NCBI GenBank assembly: GCA_001304315.1
Contig: LJUW01000011.1
Span: 1-33,638, forward strand
From: a candidate division Zixibacteria bacterium SM23_73_2
GTDB lineage: Bacteria; Zixibacteria; MSB-5A5; SM23-73-2
DNA length: 33,638 nucleotides
Direction: 5' to 3'
A program made the translations under genes and the position numbers. The notes below the pieces were generated by a model. That model was not told where the DNA came from and searched no databases. It saw only the letters and a list, made by a program, of their open reading frames with translations. Numbering within the stretch: position 1 is the stretch's first letter; each line of letters starts with the position of its first letter. This document shows positions 9,719-16,184 of this stretch, in pieces.

Positions 9719-9741
9719 CGCAGATTGAAGTCTGTGGCTAC
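9719..9741 (+). repeat. Dispersed hairpin repeat, GGCTAC-tailed family (copy A)
   Basis: A 7+7 bp hairpin (9719-9725 with 9730-9736) is followed by the tail GGCTAC. It aligns without gaps to the repeat at 13191-13213, with 18 of 23 positions identical. One pair changes from A-T to G-C, and two others switch between wobble and G-C pairs. It lies in the gap between hldA and hldC. Confidence 0.7.
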
Positions 9742-11219: not shown

Positions 11220-12953
11220 ATGAAAGGAAATACAATAGGCAGCTTTGCTTTGGTTTTGCATTCGCATCTACCCTACGTTATCGCCCATGGAAGATGGCCC
11301 CATGGAATGGACTGGCTCAACGAGGCTGCAAGCGAGACCTATATCCCCCTTTTGAATATACTTTATGAGCTTGTGGAGGAGGGTTATTCACCGAAAATCA
11401 CCATCGGAATATCTCCGGTTTTGACCGAACAGTTGAAAGACAGAGCTTTTTCCGAAGAACTTTTAACTTACCTGGATCTGAAAATCGAGGCTGCGGAAAA
11501 GGATGCTACAGAATTCAAAAGGCATTCGAGTAAAAACCTACAAAACATCGCTTTCATGTGGAGGGATCATTACAAGAAGTTAAAGACCTATTTCGAAAAA
11601 ACATACAAAAAAGACCTGGTGGGCGCTTTCAAAAATCTTCAGGATTCCGGTCACATCGAGATAATGACCTGCGCGGCAACCCACGGGTACCTTCCCCTTC
11701 TTTCCCAGGATACCTCGGTTCAGGCTCAGATAAAGCTTGCGGTTTCAAACTGCAAAAAACATTTCGGTAAAAAGCCCAGGGGGATATGGCTTCCCGAATG
11801 CGCCTACCGGCCAGGATACAGGTGGATTCCGCCGGTTGGAGCTAAAAAAGAGGGGTACCAGAGAAAAGGGGTGGAGGAGTTTTTATCCGAGAATGGACTC
11901 GATTATTTTATAATAGACTCCGCACTTTTAAAGGGTGGAAAAGCCATCGGGGTTTATATTGACCGGTTCAAAGCATTAAAACAGCTCTGGGGACAGTTCG
12001 AGAAACAGTACCAGCCTCGGGAGGAGGAATTCGATAAAACACCCAGGGAGGTATATCTGGTAAGCTCAGGTGAAGGCAAAAAGCCGGTGGCGATCTTCAC
12101 CCGGGACCCCGATACCGGGCTTCAGGTCTGGAGCGGAGATTGGGGTTATCCCGGAGATGGTAACTATCTGGATTTTCACAAAAAGCACTTTCCAGGAGGG
12201 CACAGATACTGGAGGGTAACCTCACCCAAGTCCGATCTGGCTGATAAAAAGGAATACAATTTGAAAGATGCCCTAAAAAGGGTTCCTGAGAACGCAGGGC
12301 ATTTCAAGGAGATGATTAAAAAGCTTCTTTCCGATTATCACAAAAAGACCAATAAAAAGGGTGTGGTGTGTGCACCTTATGATTGTGAGCTTTTCGGTCA
12401 CTGGTGGTCTGAGGGGCCACATTTTTTGAAACTGGTTTTAAAGTGGGTTTCGGATGATCCGGAAATAGAGCTTGTCACCTGCAGCAGTTTTCTGGATCAA
12501 ACAAAACCAACCCAGGTGATATCGATTCCCGAGGGTTCCTGGGGAGAGGGTGGGTATCACTACATCTGGCTTAACCAGTGGACCCAGTGGAGCTGGAAGC
12601 ACATCTATGCCGATGAGAAAAGAATGCAGAAGTTGGCTTCGGAATTCGAAACCAAAAAAGACGAAAAATTAAAAAACATATTAAAACAGGCTGCCCGGGA
12701 GCTTCTTTTACTTCAGGCTTCTGACTGGCAGTTTCTGATCTCCACCTGGAGCGCCAGGGATTACGCTGAGTTGAGAATCTCCGAGCATCACCACAATTTC
12801 AACCGGTTGTGCGATATGGCTGAAAAGTACGCTAAAGGTGAGCAAGTGGATCAGGGTGAATGGACTTTTCTGGGTGACTGCGAGGCTAAAAACAAGGTTT
12901 TCGAGGATATAAAATTGGAATGGTTTGCCAGGGTGGAATATCCGCCACGGTAG
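11220..12953 (+). CDS. GH57 family 1,4-alpha-glucan branching enzyme (DUF1957 type)
   Basis: A 577-residue cytoplasmic enzyme that would form alpha-1,6 branches in glycogen-like glucans. The N-terminal GH57 barrel begins GSFALVLHSHLPYV (7-20). The nucleophile region GIWLPECAYRPGY puts Glu193 as catalytic nucleophile, and APYDCELFGHWWSEGP puts Asp388 as acid/base; both match the Thermotoga/Thermus branching-enzyme type rather than amylopullulanase. A C-terminal helical domain (about 430-577) contains LLLLQASDWQFLISTW, typical of this subgroup. AAAGGAGAAAGG precedes the ATG. No other glycogen gene is in the window. Confidence 0.92.
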   Translation: MKGNTIGSFALVLHSHLPYVIAHGRWPHGMDWLNEAASETYIPLLNILYELVEEGYSPKITIGISPVLTEQLKDRAFSEELLTYLDLKIEAAEKDATEFKRHSSKNLQNIAFMWRDHYKKLKTYFEKTYKKDLVGAFKNLQDSGHIEIMTCAATHGYLPLLSQDTSVQAQIKLAVSNCKKHFGKKPRGIWLPECAYRPGYRWIPPVGAKKEGYQRKGVEEFLSENGLDYFIIDSALLKGGKAIGVYIDRFKALKQLWGQFEKQYQPREEEFDKTPREVYLVSSGEGKKPVAIFTRDPDTGLQVWSGDWGYPGDGNYLDFHKKHFPGGHRYWRVTSPKSDLADKKEYNLKDALKRVPENAGHFKEMIKKLLSDYHKKTNKKGVVCAPYDCELFGHWWSEGPHFLKLVLKWVSDDPEIELVTCSSFLDQTKPTQVISIPEGSWGEGGYHYIWLNQWTQWSWKHIYADEKRMQKLASEFETKKDEKLKNILKQAARELLLLQASDWQFLISTWSARDYAELRISEHHHNFNRLCDMAEKYAKGEQVDQGEWTFLGDCEAKNKVFEDIKLEWFARVEYPPR

Positions 12954-13024: not shown

Positions 13025-13079
13025 AATGCCCCAGCAAGACTGGGGAATTATCTTTGTCTACCCACGTTGGGGGCAACGT
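13025..13079 (+). repeat. Tandem double-hairpin repeat, copy 1
   Basis: A first stem (GCCCCAG / CTGGGG, 13028-13046) is followed by ATTATCTTTGT and a second stem (CAACGTTG family: 13061-13069 with 13074-13079). A near-identical unit recurs at 13315-13373 in the same orientation. It lies about 70 bases after the GH57 stop and may weakly terminate that gene. Confidence 0.7.
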
Positions 13080-13108
13080 TGACTGTGTGAAAAATATGTT
13101 TTGAAGTG

Positions 13109-13161
13109 GTAGCCACAACCTTTCCGCCAAAGGCGGATCCACCTACGGTGGATAGGTTGCG
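13109..13161 (-). repeat. Three-way-junction hairpin repeat, GGCTAC-tailed family (copy B)
   Basis: An 8-bp outer stem (13114-13121 with 13154-13161) encloses two perfect hairpins: TCCGCC-AAA-GGCGGA (13123-13137) and ATCCACC-TAC-GGTGGAT (13137-13153). On the minus strand the outer stem ends in GTGGCTAC, the same tail as copies A and C. It appears to be the same element with extra hairpins in the loop. Confidence 0.65.
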
Positions 13162-13190
13162 TAAGTCATTGAAATTAAATACCCCGATTT

Positions 13191-13213
13191 CGCAGGCTAA
13201 AGCCTGCGGCTAC
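13191..13213 (+). repeat. Dispersed hairpin repeat, GGCTAC-tailed family (copy C)
   Basis: A perfect 7-bp stem (CGCAGGC 13191-13197, GCCTGCG 13202-13208) with loop TAAA and tail GGCTAC (13208-13213). It is homologous to copy A at 9719-9741. It lies between the GH57 and tldE genes with the other repeats of the 442-base convergent gap (12954-13395), which otherwise holds no gene. Confidence 0.7.
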
Positions 13214-13308
13214 CAAAAATAAAGGTTTTTACACAATCTGACATGGTATTACCAATTAATTTTAAAAATTACATTACACAGAATAGTTCACAAGTCTTGT
13301 TGGTGATC

Positions 13309-13339
13309 AAAAAAAATGCCCCAGCAAAACTGGGGCATT
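13309..13339 (-). terminator. Intrinsic terminator of tldD-tldE
   Basis: A perfect 10-bp stem (AATGCCCCAG 13315-13324 with CTGGGGCATT 13330-13339) has a 5-base loop. On the minus strand a run of T follows (13316 to 13309). It lies about 55 bases after the tldE stop. On the plus strand it is followed by ATCTTTGTTTT, so it may work in both directions. Confidence 0.85.
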
Positions 13340-13373
13340 ATCTTTGTTTTGCCCACGTTGAGGGCAACGTGGG
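13315..13373 (+). repeat. Tandem double-hairpin repeat, copy 2
   Basis: This matches the unit at 13025-13079: a GCCCCAG-type stem, the spacer ATTATCTTTGT, then a perfect 9-bp stem (CCCACGTTG 13352-13360, CAACGTGGG 13365-13373, loop AGGG). The two units are 290 bases apart in the same orientation. The first stem is also the tldE terminator. Confidence 0.75.
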
Positions 13374-13395: not shown

Positions 13396-14745
13396 TCAGA
13401 ACTCGGTTTTTCCGGTGAATTTGAATTTTTTAATCAGTACCGCAGGGCAGACTATGCAGCCTACGTCCTCCCACCATGAGTTAATCACCTTTCTGTCCCG
13501 GGAAAGCTCGACTACATTGGAGAAAGCCTTAAGCATCGACTCGGTGAACCTTAGGTTTTTAATCCCGTGTTTTATTTTTCCATTCTCGATAAAGAAGGTT
13601 CCGTCCCTGGTCATTCCGGTAAACAGAGCATTACGGGTGTCCAGATAGCCGTTGATGTAATGAAACCTGGTTATCAGAAGACCGCGTTTGGTTTTCTCGA
13701 TCATCTTCTTTATGGAGGAATTGCCTGCTTTGACAAATAGGTTTAAGGCTATGGCACCCTCAGAGAAATCAGGGGTTAGGGCATGACCGGTGGATTTAAC
13801 CTTATCCTTGGTAGCGCTCAAAGAATCGTAGACCACCCCTTTGGCTACCCCGCTCTGAATGATGGTCACCTTCTTTTTGGGAACGCCCTCGAAGTCAAAG
13901 GGAAATCCCATGGCGGACTCATCGTTTCCGTCATCGTAGATGCTGATCGAATCACCCATTATCTTTTTACCGATTCTATCAGCCATAAAGCTGGTCTTCT
14001 CCTGGAGCGGTTTTGAGCCGAATCCGATGTAGTTCAGCCACTCGATAAGGTTAGCCAGGGCAGCCGGCTCCAGTATCACATCATATTCCCCGGGTTCCAC
14101 CCCCTTTGGGTTTTTACTTTCCAGACATTTACCTATGGCAACCTCAGCTAACTTTTCGACATCGACTGTGGTTACGTCCCGGGTCAAAAACTCCGAATAA
14201 CCGGAGGAATTACCGGACATCACCACGATGTTAATAAAAGAGGAGGTAAGAGGCTGGTAACAGGCAACCCCCAGGGAATTGACCACCGCTATCTCCGATT
14301 CTGCGGTTGAAAAAGAACCTGCCACGTCAAGGTCGTGTTTTTTAGCTTTTTCGAATATCTCTTTTACCTTCTCTGCCCTCTGGATTGGGGTGAAGGAAGC
14401 GGTTTTCTTGAAATGGGTTTTTATCTTTTTGTAACTCTGCTTGGAAGGGAGGGAAACGAAATCGGGATTTTCCCTCTGGTTTTTTGCGATTTCCATAGCA
14501 TTATCCAGAGCCCTTTTCAAATCCTCCCTTTTCAAGGAGTTGGTGATTGCCACCCCGATCTTTTTCCCCAGGATCGTCCTGAAATAGATTTTGGAATTGT
14601 TCTCGGAGACGTTCTGGTGAATGGTGGAGTTAGCGTATCGGGTCAGCCCGTTTTCTCCGCCGATGAATATGGCCTCGGTCTGATCGGCTGTGGATTTTTT
14701 GATGGCGGTTTTTAAGGTGCTGAGTATCTTGTCTTTTCCTATCAT
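13396..14745 (-). CDS. tldE: TldE/PmbA-type metalloprotease partner subunit
   Basis: A 449-residue PmbA/TldD-family protein that lacks the HExxxH motif, as expected for the TldE partner of a TldD/E protease complex. Landmarks are LTRYANSTIHQN, a middle region FDFEGVPKKKVTII, and STGHALTPDFS. Such complexes mature peptides or degrade unfolded ones in the cytoplasm. I chose the ATG at 14745, which overlaps the tldD stop by four bases (ATGA), rather than a longer frame to 14850 whose first residues come from the tldD 3' end. The C-terminus has a CIVC pair. The terminator lies at 13309-13339. Confidence 0.9.
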   Translation of the reverse strand: MIGKDKILSTLKTAIKKSTADQTEAIFIGGENGLTRYANSTIHQNVSENNSKIYFRTILGKKIGVAITNSLKREDLKRALDNAMEIAKNQRENPDFVSLPSKQSYKKIKTHFKKTASFTPIQRAEKVKEIFEKAKKHDLDVAGSFSTAESEIAVVNSLGVACYQPLTSSFINIVVMSGNSSGYSEFLTRDVTTVDVEKLAEVAIGKCLESKNPKGVEPGEYDVILEPAALANLIEWLNYIGFGSKPLQEKTSFMADRIGKKIMGDSISIYDDGNDESAMGFPFDFEGVPKKKVTIIQSGVAKGVVYDSLSATKDKVKSTGHALTPDFSEGAIALNLFVKAGNSSIKKMIEKTKRGLLITRFHYINGYLDTRNALFTGMTRDGTFFIENGKIKHGIKNLRFTESMLKAFSNVVELSRDRKVINSWWEDVGCIVCPAVLIKKFKFTGKTEF

Positions 14746-16184
14746 TTGCTCACCCCCACCTTTATGTTTCTGAACCTTGTCGGGGAGGCACCGTGAGCCA
14801 CGTGCATGATCTGCATGGGCTCGCCTTTTCCACAGTTGGGAACTCCCCACACCCTCCAGTGCTTTCTGTTGCAGACCGCATCGCAGGAGTTCCAGAACTC
14901 AGGGGTTATGCCGGTGTAAACCGGATTTTTGTAAACCTTGCCCACCTTCCCGTTTTTTATCTCCCAGGCGATCTCGGTACCGAACTGGAAGTTGAGCCTT
15001 TTGTCATCGATGCTCCAGGATTTGTTCATATCCACTAGTATACCCTCCTGGGTGTCGGCGATAAGATCATTAAGTTCCCATTCGCCGGGTTCCAGATTGA
15101 TATTGGTCATCCTTATCAGAGGGATCCGGTTCCATCCGTCCGCCCTCATGGTGCCATTGCTTTTCTGTTTCAAAACCGGTGCGGTTTCCCTGGAGGTGAG
15201 GTATCCCACAAAAAGTCCGTCTTTCACCAGAAAACTTCTCTGGGCTTTCACTCCCTCATCGTCGTATCCGAAAGTCCCCAATCCTCCGGGAACGGTTGCA
15301 TCCGCAGTTATGGAGACTTTATCCGAACCGTACCTGAGCTTGCTCAGCTTATCCAGAGTCAGAAAGCTCCCTCCAGCCAGGCTGATCTCGGTTCCCAGCA
15401 CCCGATCCAGCTCGGTGGGATGGCCGCAGGATTCGTGAATCTGCAGGGCCATCTGGGGACCGGTGATTATCAAGGTTGTGGTAGTATCGGGACAGGGGTC
15501 CGCTGATAGAAGTTGAATCGCCTCCTCCCTGGTCCTCTCAGCATTTTCCAGAAATCTCATCTCCTGGATGAACTCATAACCTCTGGTGGCGAAATCTCCG
15601 GTGTGGGAGCCGGGATAGGACCTTCTTTGTACCTCGCCATCATCAACCGCGGTGGCGAATATTCCTGCTCCCGATTCCAGTATAGCCTGGGTGATGTAAG
15701 CGCCCTCAGTTGAAGCAAAGACCTTGTCGGTTTTGTAAAATCCCATGTATCCCTCAGCTACTTTAATCTTTTTGCTTTTTGAAAGTATCTGGGTCGAATT
15801 CAAAAGGAGCTCTATCTTTCTATCCAAAGGCACGGTGAATGGATCGAGCTGATAAAAAGACTGGTATTTGTCCACAAAAGATTCCTGCTCGGCTAAGACC
15901 ACGTTCTCCTTCTTGGTGATGGCGCTGGCTTTCGCTATCTGGATTGCCTTGTTGGCCACCCTCTTCATCTCAGCTTCGGTGGTTACCGAGGATGAGGCAA
16001 ATCCCCACGAACCGGAGTTGATGACCCTGATCCCGAATCCCTGATCCTCGTTTCTGGAGATGGATTCTACGTTTTTGTTTTTTACCTTTATGCTCTCGGC
16101 AAGCTTTTTCTGGAGTCGGATGTCCGCATAATCCACCTTCTTTTTTTTGAGATAGTCGATGGTGACTTTGATTTTATCTTCCAA
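14742..16184 (-). CDS. tldD: TldD-type zinc metalloprotease subunit
   Basis: A 480-residue protease with the zinc motif HESCGHPTELD: His250, Glu251 and His255, plus a likely third ligand in the C-terminal VPNCGKGEP/HGASP region. The N-terminal DYADIRLQ and the region near NMTNINLEPG-like TNINLEPGE are family landmarks. With TldE downstream it should form a heterodimer with a chambered active site. Start is a TTG at 16184 with AAAGGAGG six bases upstream. Known targets are microcins and CcdA in E. coli; the substrate here is unknown and no peptide-precursor gene was seen nearby. Confidence 0.93.
   Translation of the reverse strand: MEDKIKVTIDYLKKKKVDYADIRLQKKLAESIKVKNKNVESISRNEDQGFGIRVINSGSWGFASSSVTTEAEMKRVANKAIQIAKASAITKKENVVLAEQESFVDKYQSFYQLDPFTVPLDRKIELLLNSTQILSKSKKIKVAEGYMGFYKTDKVFASTEGAYITQAILESGAGIFATAVDDGEVQRRSYPGSHTGDFATRGYEFIQEMRFLENAERTREEAIQLLSADPCPDTTTTLIITGPQMALQIHESCGHPTELDRVLGTEISLAGGSFLTLDKLSKLRYGSDKVSITADATVPGGLGTFGYDDEGVKAQRSFLVKDGLFVGYLTSRETAPVLKQKSNGTMRADGWNRIPLIRMTNINLEPGEWELNDLIADTQEGILVDMNKSWSIDDKRLNFQFGTEIAWEIKNGKVGKVYKNPVYTGITPEFWNSCDAVCNRKHWRVWGVPNCGKGEPMQIMHVAHGASPTRFRNIKVGVSK

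Follow-up and report, generated by a model that had tools for sequence, protein, structure and literature searches.

The hairpin repeats of the window, the whole stretch of 33,638 nucleotides analysed here, are GTAG-tagged REPs, and positions 13109–13213 hold a REPIN, an inverted head-to-head heterodimer of two such REPs; we hold this reading with high confidence. REPs are well-known bacterial mini-elements whose movement is attributed to a special transposase. On its GTAG strand the repeat reads 5'-GTAGC-CGCANNCT-TN-AGNNTGCG, with an 8-bp stem. The features assigned in the window are as follows.

13109–13161, plus strand: left REP of the REPIN, 53-nt form, with a GTAGC tag and a 30-nt double-hairpin insert between AACCTT and TAGGTT
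13123–13137, plus strand: first hairpin of the loop insert, TCCGCC-AAA-GGCGGA, a perfect 6 bp
13138–13152, plus strand: second hairpin of the loop insert, TCCACC-TAC-GGTGGA, a perfect 6 bp
13162–13190, no strand: REPIN spacer of the TAAGTCATTGAAATTnAATACnCCGATTTC type, kept between copies of the larger element
13191–13213, minus strand: right REP of the REPIN, canonical 23-nt form GTAGCCGCAGGCTTTAGCCTGCG
13081–13108, plus strand: left arm of a larger dispersed element, GACTGTGTGAAAAATATGTTTTGAAGTG, whose outer part matches the right arm as an imperfect inverted repeat
13214–13242, plus strand: right arm of the larger dispersed element, CAAAAATAAAGGTTTTTACACAATCTGAC
9719–9741, minus strand: decayed singleton REP GTAGCCACAGACTTCAATCTGCG, with a pfkB-family gene on one side and a cytidylyltransferase gene on the other

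On the forward strand, 9719–9741 is CGCAGATTGAAGTCTGTGGCTAC and 13191–13213 is CGCAGGCTAAAGCCTGCGGCTAC, and the shared GGCTAC tail is the complement of GTAGCC. A sequence-only reading had aligned these copies over 23 bases and described three altered stem pairs, all of which are present: one pair changes from A-T to G-C between CGCAGATTGAAGTCTGTGGCTAC and CGCAGGCTAAAGCCTGCGGCTAC, and on the GGCTAC-tailed strand two others differ as G-T wobble versus G-C. On the GTAG strand of the 9719 copy, those two wobble pairs are A.C mismatches. The single-stranded DNA fold of this copy is weak (-1.5 kcal/mol, z -0.9), and we consider it decayed. The corresponding z-scores are -4.4 for the copy read from 13213 to 13191 and -5.3 for 13109–13161, whose predicted fold is a three-way junction. 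The latter reads GTAGCCACAACCTT-[TCCGCCAAAGGCGGATCCACCTACGGTGGA]-TAGGTTGCG on its GTAG strand, and it does keep the outer stem (CACAACCT/AGGTTGCG, with one A.C mismatch) while carrying two perfect hairpins in its loop, as that reading had stated. Both the REPIN and the 9719 REP fall between predicted genes, the REPIN between a converging pair (GH57, 11220–12953; TldD/PmbA-like, 13396–14850).

The repeats belong to a family of about a dozen copies in the window genome, a Zixibacteria MAG. A 23-nt pattern gave 12 exact matches in this 2.26-Mb genome, versus none for the reversed pattern. The genome-wide covariance-model search that had been proposed, run with a model built from seven copies (the 53-nt form among them), returned 13 candidates, the last few weak, together with strong matches in relatives; E-values reach 2e-5 per genome. 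When the pattern was applied to 133 genomes of the phylum, at least three copies were found in all eleven genomes of the order and in Zixibacteria bacterium RBG-1 (G026), and the other 121 genomes had zero or one match, with which the covariance model concurs. Copy numbers, at about 3–30 per genome, are low compared with classical REP families, a point against our reading. The GTAG tag is present in 35/35 distinct 23-nt copies, though the search pattern itself demanded most of it; a scan of RAYT flanks recovered the tag independently. The two bases 5' of GTAG are mostly TG (T in 104 and G in 128 of 168 REP copies), possibly an extension of the recognition or cut site. On viral contigs, the 23-nt pattern matches 37 stretches.

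The stem is kept as pairs while its letters change, as in GTAG-type REPs. Among the 35 distinct 23-nt copies, pair 5 is GC in 17, AU in 13 and CG in 4, pair 6 is GC in 13, CG in 10, UA in 6 and AU in 5, and each is unpaired once. We counted 39 double-changed cells versus 12.0 +/- 3.1 in shuffles, and the covariation score was reached by 0/500 shuffles. Paired cells make up 96.1%; shuffles give 83.8%, and the best slid control reaches 38.4%. Across all 149 copies, pairs 5 and 6 are mismatched in 3/298 cases. The pattern that gave the 12 genome matches left these two pairs free, yet it recovered solely paired copies except for the decayed 9719 REP. The six remaining pairs are nearly invariant, a low variation that was partly imposed, since the pattern fixed some of them and near-perfect pairing was required when copies were collected. 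The proposal that the hairpins form a family selected for its fold is thus supported by further copies and by covarying stems. The narrower claim of compensatory changes survives in part: pairs 5 and 6 covary across the family, but the two wobble pairs, found in a decayed copy, are near-constant G-C elsewhere. Chance palindromes in AT-rich intergenic DNA are refuted as an explanation; three copies in a window say little by themselves, but genome-wide controls are close to zero, covariation lies far above the shuffles and the repeats are tied to a transposase clade (see below).

Non-Watson-Crick stem pairs on the GTAG strand are A.C in 12 cases and G.T in 2 among the 168 REP copies, an excess that may stem from mutation biased by strand, from RNA pairing of the opposite strand or from the search pattern. 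The REPIN adjoins terminator-like hairpins with a shared core, CAGCAARACTG, on either side (13029–13045 and 13315–13339; also 13352–13373). The CAGCAARACTG hairpins form a direct repeat, after which comes a CCCACGTTG/CAACGT hairpin, and the core has 8 matches in the genome versus 1 for a reversed control. A search against Rfam gave just two sub-threshold matches, both in this terminator-like hairpin region beside the REPIN. These surroundings, the converging genes and the A.C excess, which would be G.U on the other strand, are what an RNA role would draw on, with the repeats kept for 3'-end processing, mRNA stability or termination and the fold selected as RNA. We consider such a role improbable: the GTAG tag is conserved outside the stem and matches a transposase clade, an intergenic site is expected of any repeat, and the wobble count is small, non-independent and swayed by the search pattern.

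The REPs at 13109 (plus strand) and 13213 (minus strand) lie head to head, with GTAG outward and a short spacer between them, the arrangement of a REPIN or BIME, which the sequence-only reading had not mentioned. The family set contains 30 distinct head-to-head spacers. Partners share a stem class in 0/25 of the distinct head-to-head dimers outside the larger element, the usual dimer joining one GCAA stem to one GCAG stem. Permutation of partners reproduced the absence of a shared class in 0/100,000 trials and the absence of identical stems in 0.09%. A preference for heterodimers is known in several GTAG families, and the main text of the 2013 description calls it unexplained (PMC3733652); the strict different-stem rule seen here bears on that preference.

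In six REPIN copies of the window genome, and in further copies from G001, G005 and G009, the REPIN and about 28 nt of shared flank on each side appear to make up an element of about 160 bp. Its ends are imperfect inverted repeats of the type GRCTGTGTSAnAAT. Its left slot holds GCAACC, GCAATC, the double-hairpin form or GYCCATATGGRC, and its right slot GCAGGC, GCAGAC, GCCCCGC or GTCCCGC, with pairing restored in most copies. This element counts against RAYT movement alone, which does not explain a unit with inverted-repeat ends. The dispersing unit could instead be a TIR-type MITE of about 160 bp, moved in trans by a conventional transposase with the REPs as passengers, as the shared flanks past both GTAG tags and the inverted ends would lead one to suppose. 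We judge this rather unlikely. The flanks are missing from most REPs and REPINs (25/30 distinct head-to-head spacers), the REPtron evidence does not depend on them, target duplications appear inconsistent by eye, and no transposase with matching ends was identified. In four G005 contigs (C441, C228, C387 and C227; loci L244–L247) the right REP is cut in its loop, at GCAGACTAAA or GCAGGCTAAA, and runs into GGGRCTGTTGAAAAA, which seems to be the end of insertion sequences with the REP loop as their target. At five further loci in G005 and G009 (L238, L239, L241, L243 and L254) the larger element sits between inverted-repeat arms of the CCCTCTCC type, suggestive of an insertion into the loop of a second hairpin.

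Our preferred reading, GTAG-tagged REPs and REPINs, gains its transposase from RBG-1, which carries a full REPtron: an HuH transposase (RAYT) gene at 1359563–1360045 lies amid family REPs, with GTAGCCGCAACC...GGTTGCG on both sides. With the RBG-1 RAYT protein as the sole query, the named genomes yielded 17 loci, RBG-1 included, and 15 of these form one clade (support 100/99), whose hosts include Ignavibacteria, Omnitrophota, Spirochaetota, Bacteroidota and others. HuH and Tyr motifs together with a flanking REP were found in RBG-1 and 14 other loci. At all 15 clade loci, GTAG[CGT]C REPs lie within 700 bp of the RAYT gene; 13 include GTAG[CGT]CGCA types and two have GTAGCCCA. Sister RAYT branches bear other tags (GTAGCGGA, GTAGTGCG and GTAGCTCG), and with the match in 15/15 loci this indicates that tag and RAYT clade travel together. 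MAG binning error could misplace single organisms; it cannot explain a gene and its REPs on one contig.

The suggested link to a RAYT gene therefore holds in RBG-1 and in other phyla, but not in the window or the window genome. The window genome has six Y1_Tnp (RAYT-like) genes, three of which adjoin REPs of other tags (GTAGGTCG twice, GTAGGGG once), and we rejected a RAYT linkage in its own genome because the three REP-bearing RAYTs carry GTAGGTCG or GTAGGGG types. A RAYT of the cognate clade was found neither in the window genome (86% complete), whose best relative is 33% identical and has no REP alongside, nor in its genus-mate (98% complete), and thus the family is probably orphaned there. 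A Bacteroidetes origin was also considered and rejected, as RBG-1 belongs to the same class as the window organism. Further tags occur in these Zixibacteria at loci L014, L015, L017 and L110–L139 (GTAGGTCG, GTAGGGG, GTAGCGTC, GTAGCGGA and GTAGTGCG/GTAGCGCG), each beside its own RAYT.

From TnpAREP work in E. coli, Stenotrophomonas and Marinomonas, we infer that the repeats were moved by a RAYT. Purified TnpAREP is guided by GTAG and cuts the strand that bears it, at CT or CA (PMC8266576). By analogy, the GTAG strand would fold when single-stranded, and an HuH RAYT would read GTAG and the stem, cut nearby and move or copy the REP or REPIN. The RAYT of the RBG-1 clade would act in this way on GTAGCCGCA REPs as single-stranded DNA. 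Since the cognate RAYT was found in neither the window genome nor its genus-mate, the copies of the former were probably left behind by an earlier RAYT, or were moved rarely in trans.

The 53-nt form differs from the 23-nt REP by exactly 30 nt, placed between AACCTT and TAGGTT. It recurs in G000 (C6, C107, C77 and C49, the last degenerate) and in G001 (C55). Elsewhere the same insertion point holds 15 nt (G001, five loci), 19 nt (RBG-1), 29 nt (G007, three loci) or 30 nt of different sequence (G003 and G005), and all of these inserts are self-complementary, wholly or in part. For the second 30-nt kind the prediction is a single extended stem and no three-way junction. The 15-nt insert is found on outer stems GCAACC and GCAATC, and the second 30-nt kind on GCAGGC and GCACTC; stem and loop are thus combined freely. 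The TCCRCC double hairpin also tops unrelated outer stems, GTGTCAGGAC/GTCCTGACAC in G001 and GTAGGGGCGATT/AATCRCCCCTAC in G003, where the predicted fold differs from the two-hairpin form. Covariation in the double hairpin is modest, with 6 double changes in one pair and 1 in another. The 30-nt module is present in 7/130 genomes, five of them in the order. In the viral collection the double-hairpin pattern has one match (L331, 12785–12814), in another context, near a tRNA-like stretch.

Loop-inserted forms occupy 14 sites with distinct flanks, which suggests that they moved with the insert or that the insert was gained repeatedly. In our preferred reading the REP loop acts as an expansion slot in which the 30-nt module is placed between CTT and TAG; tag and stem are left undisturbed, so that the REP still folds. 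It is doubtful, in our estimate, that the 30-nt double hairpin TCCRCCNNNGGYGGATCCRCCNNNGGYGGA and its 15–30 nt counterparts are mobile mini-elements that enter the loops of larger hairpin repeats exactly and with no target duplication, to give nested palindromes in which hairpins lie in a REP, the REP in a REPIN and the REPIN in an inverted-repeat element. In mitochondrial genomes, double-hairpin elements are known in which two adjacent small hairpins form a dispersed unit; the genomes differ and the likeness is one of description, and we take the comparison with the 30-nt module as an analogy only. Variation of REP loops is already known. The placement of one or two extra hairpins exactly in the loop of some copies is the sole unusual part of the family, and we found no description of a loop-inserted form in the main texts of the papers searched.

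The family is a new member of the GTAG REP/RAYT kind and extends REP/RAYT systems to a Zixibacteria group. With the GTAG REP superfamily, as set out in the text of Di Nocera 2013 (PMC3733652), it shares a terminal GTAG, a stem within 6–13 bp, a short loop, alternative complementary stem residues, HH/TT dimers, heterodimers and association with RAYTs, and the two sites in the window are intergenic, as in that superfamily. That text makes no mention of Zixibacteria, and the comparison is by its descriptions and not by its 24 family consensuses; it speaks of self-complementary loop regions and, within the text, of no two-hairpin loop inserts, which are a trait of the Zixibacteria family. The REPIN/BIME of Bertels and Rainey 2011 (PMC3116915), as described in PMC6006769, likewise has two inverted REPs with GTAG outside and a spacer, whereas some Zixibacteria copies extend into conserved inverted-repeat flanks and the left REP may hold a loop insert. 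The 'double foot' REPs of TnpAREP subclass 2.4 (Corneloup 2018, PMC6006769) are likewise a complex kind of REP from lineages that have more than one type of RAYT, but each bears GTAG at its 5' end and CTAC at its 3' end. The 53-nt form combines one GTAG with an insert in the loop; we rejected the label for this form, whose unit ends in TGCG with no 3' CTAC.

One RAYT clade tied to one REP tag across several phyla offers a clean natural data set on hairpin choice by HuH enzymes, and the loop-inserted forms are natural test substrates for RAYTs. How far the loop may vary depends on the group: it is free in E. coli, but Stenotrophomonas and Marinomonas are strict about some of its positions (PMC8266576). 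Because some RAYTs allow no change at certain loop positions, loop tolerance is directly testable with the dispersed copies that carry the 30-nt insert. A contrast is offered by the Marinomonas REPtron Mb (PMC8266576), which, like the Zixibacteria family, has a TTTA-type loop on a perfect stem and a GTAG tag; certain positions of the Mb loop tolerate no change, whereas the Zixibacteria loops hold inserts of 15–30 nt in copies that are dispersed.
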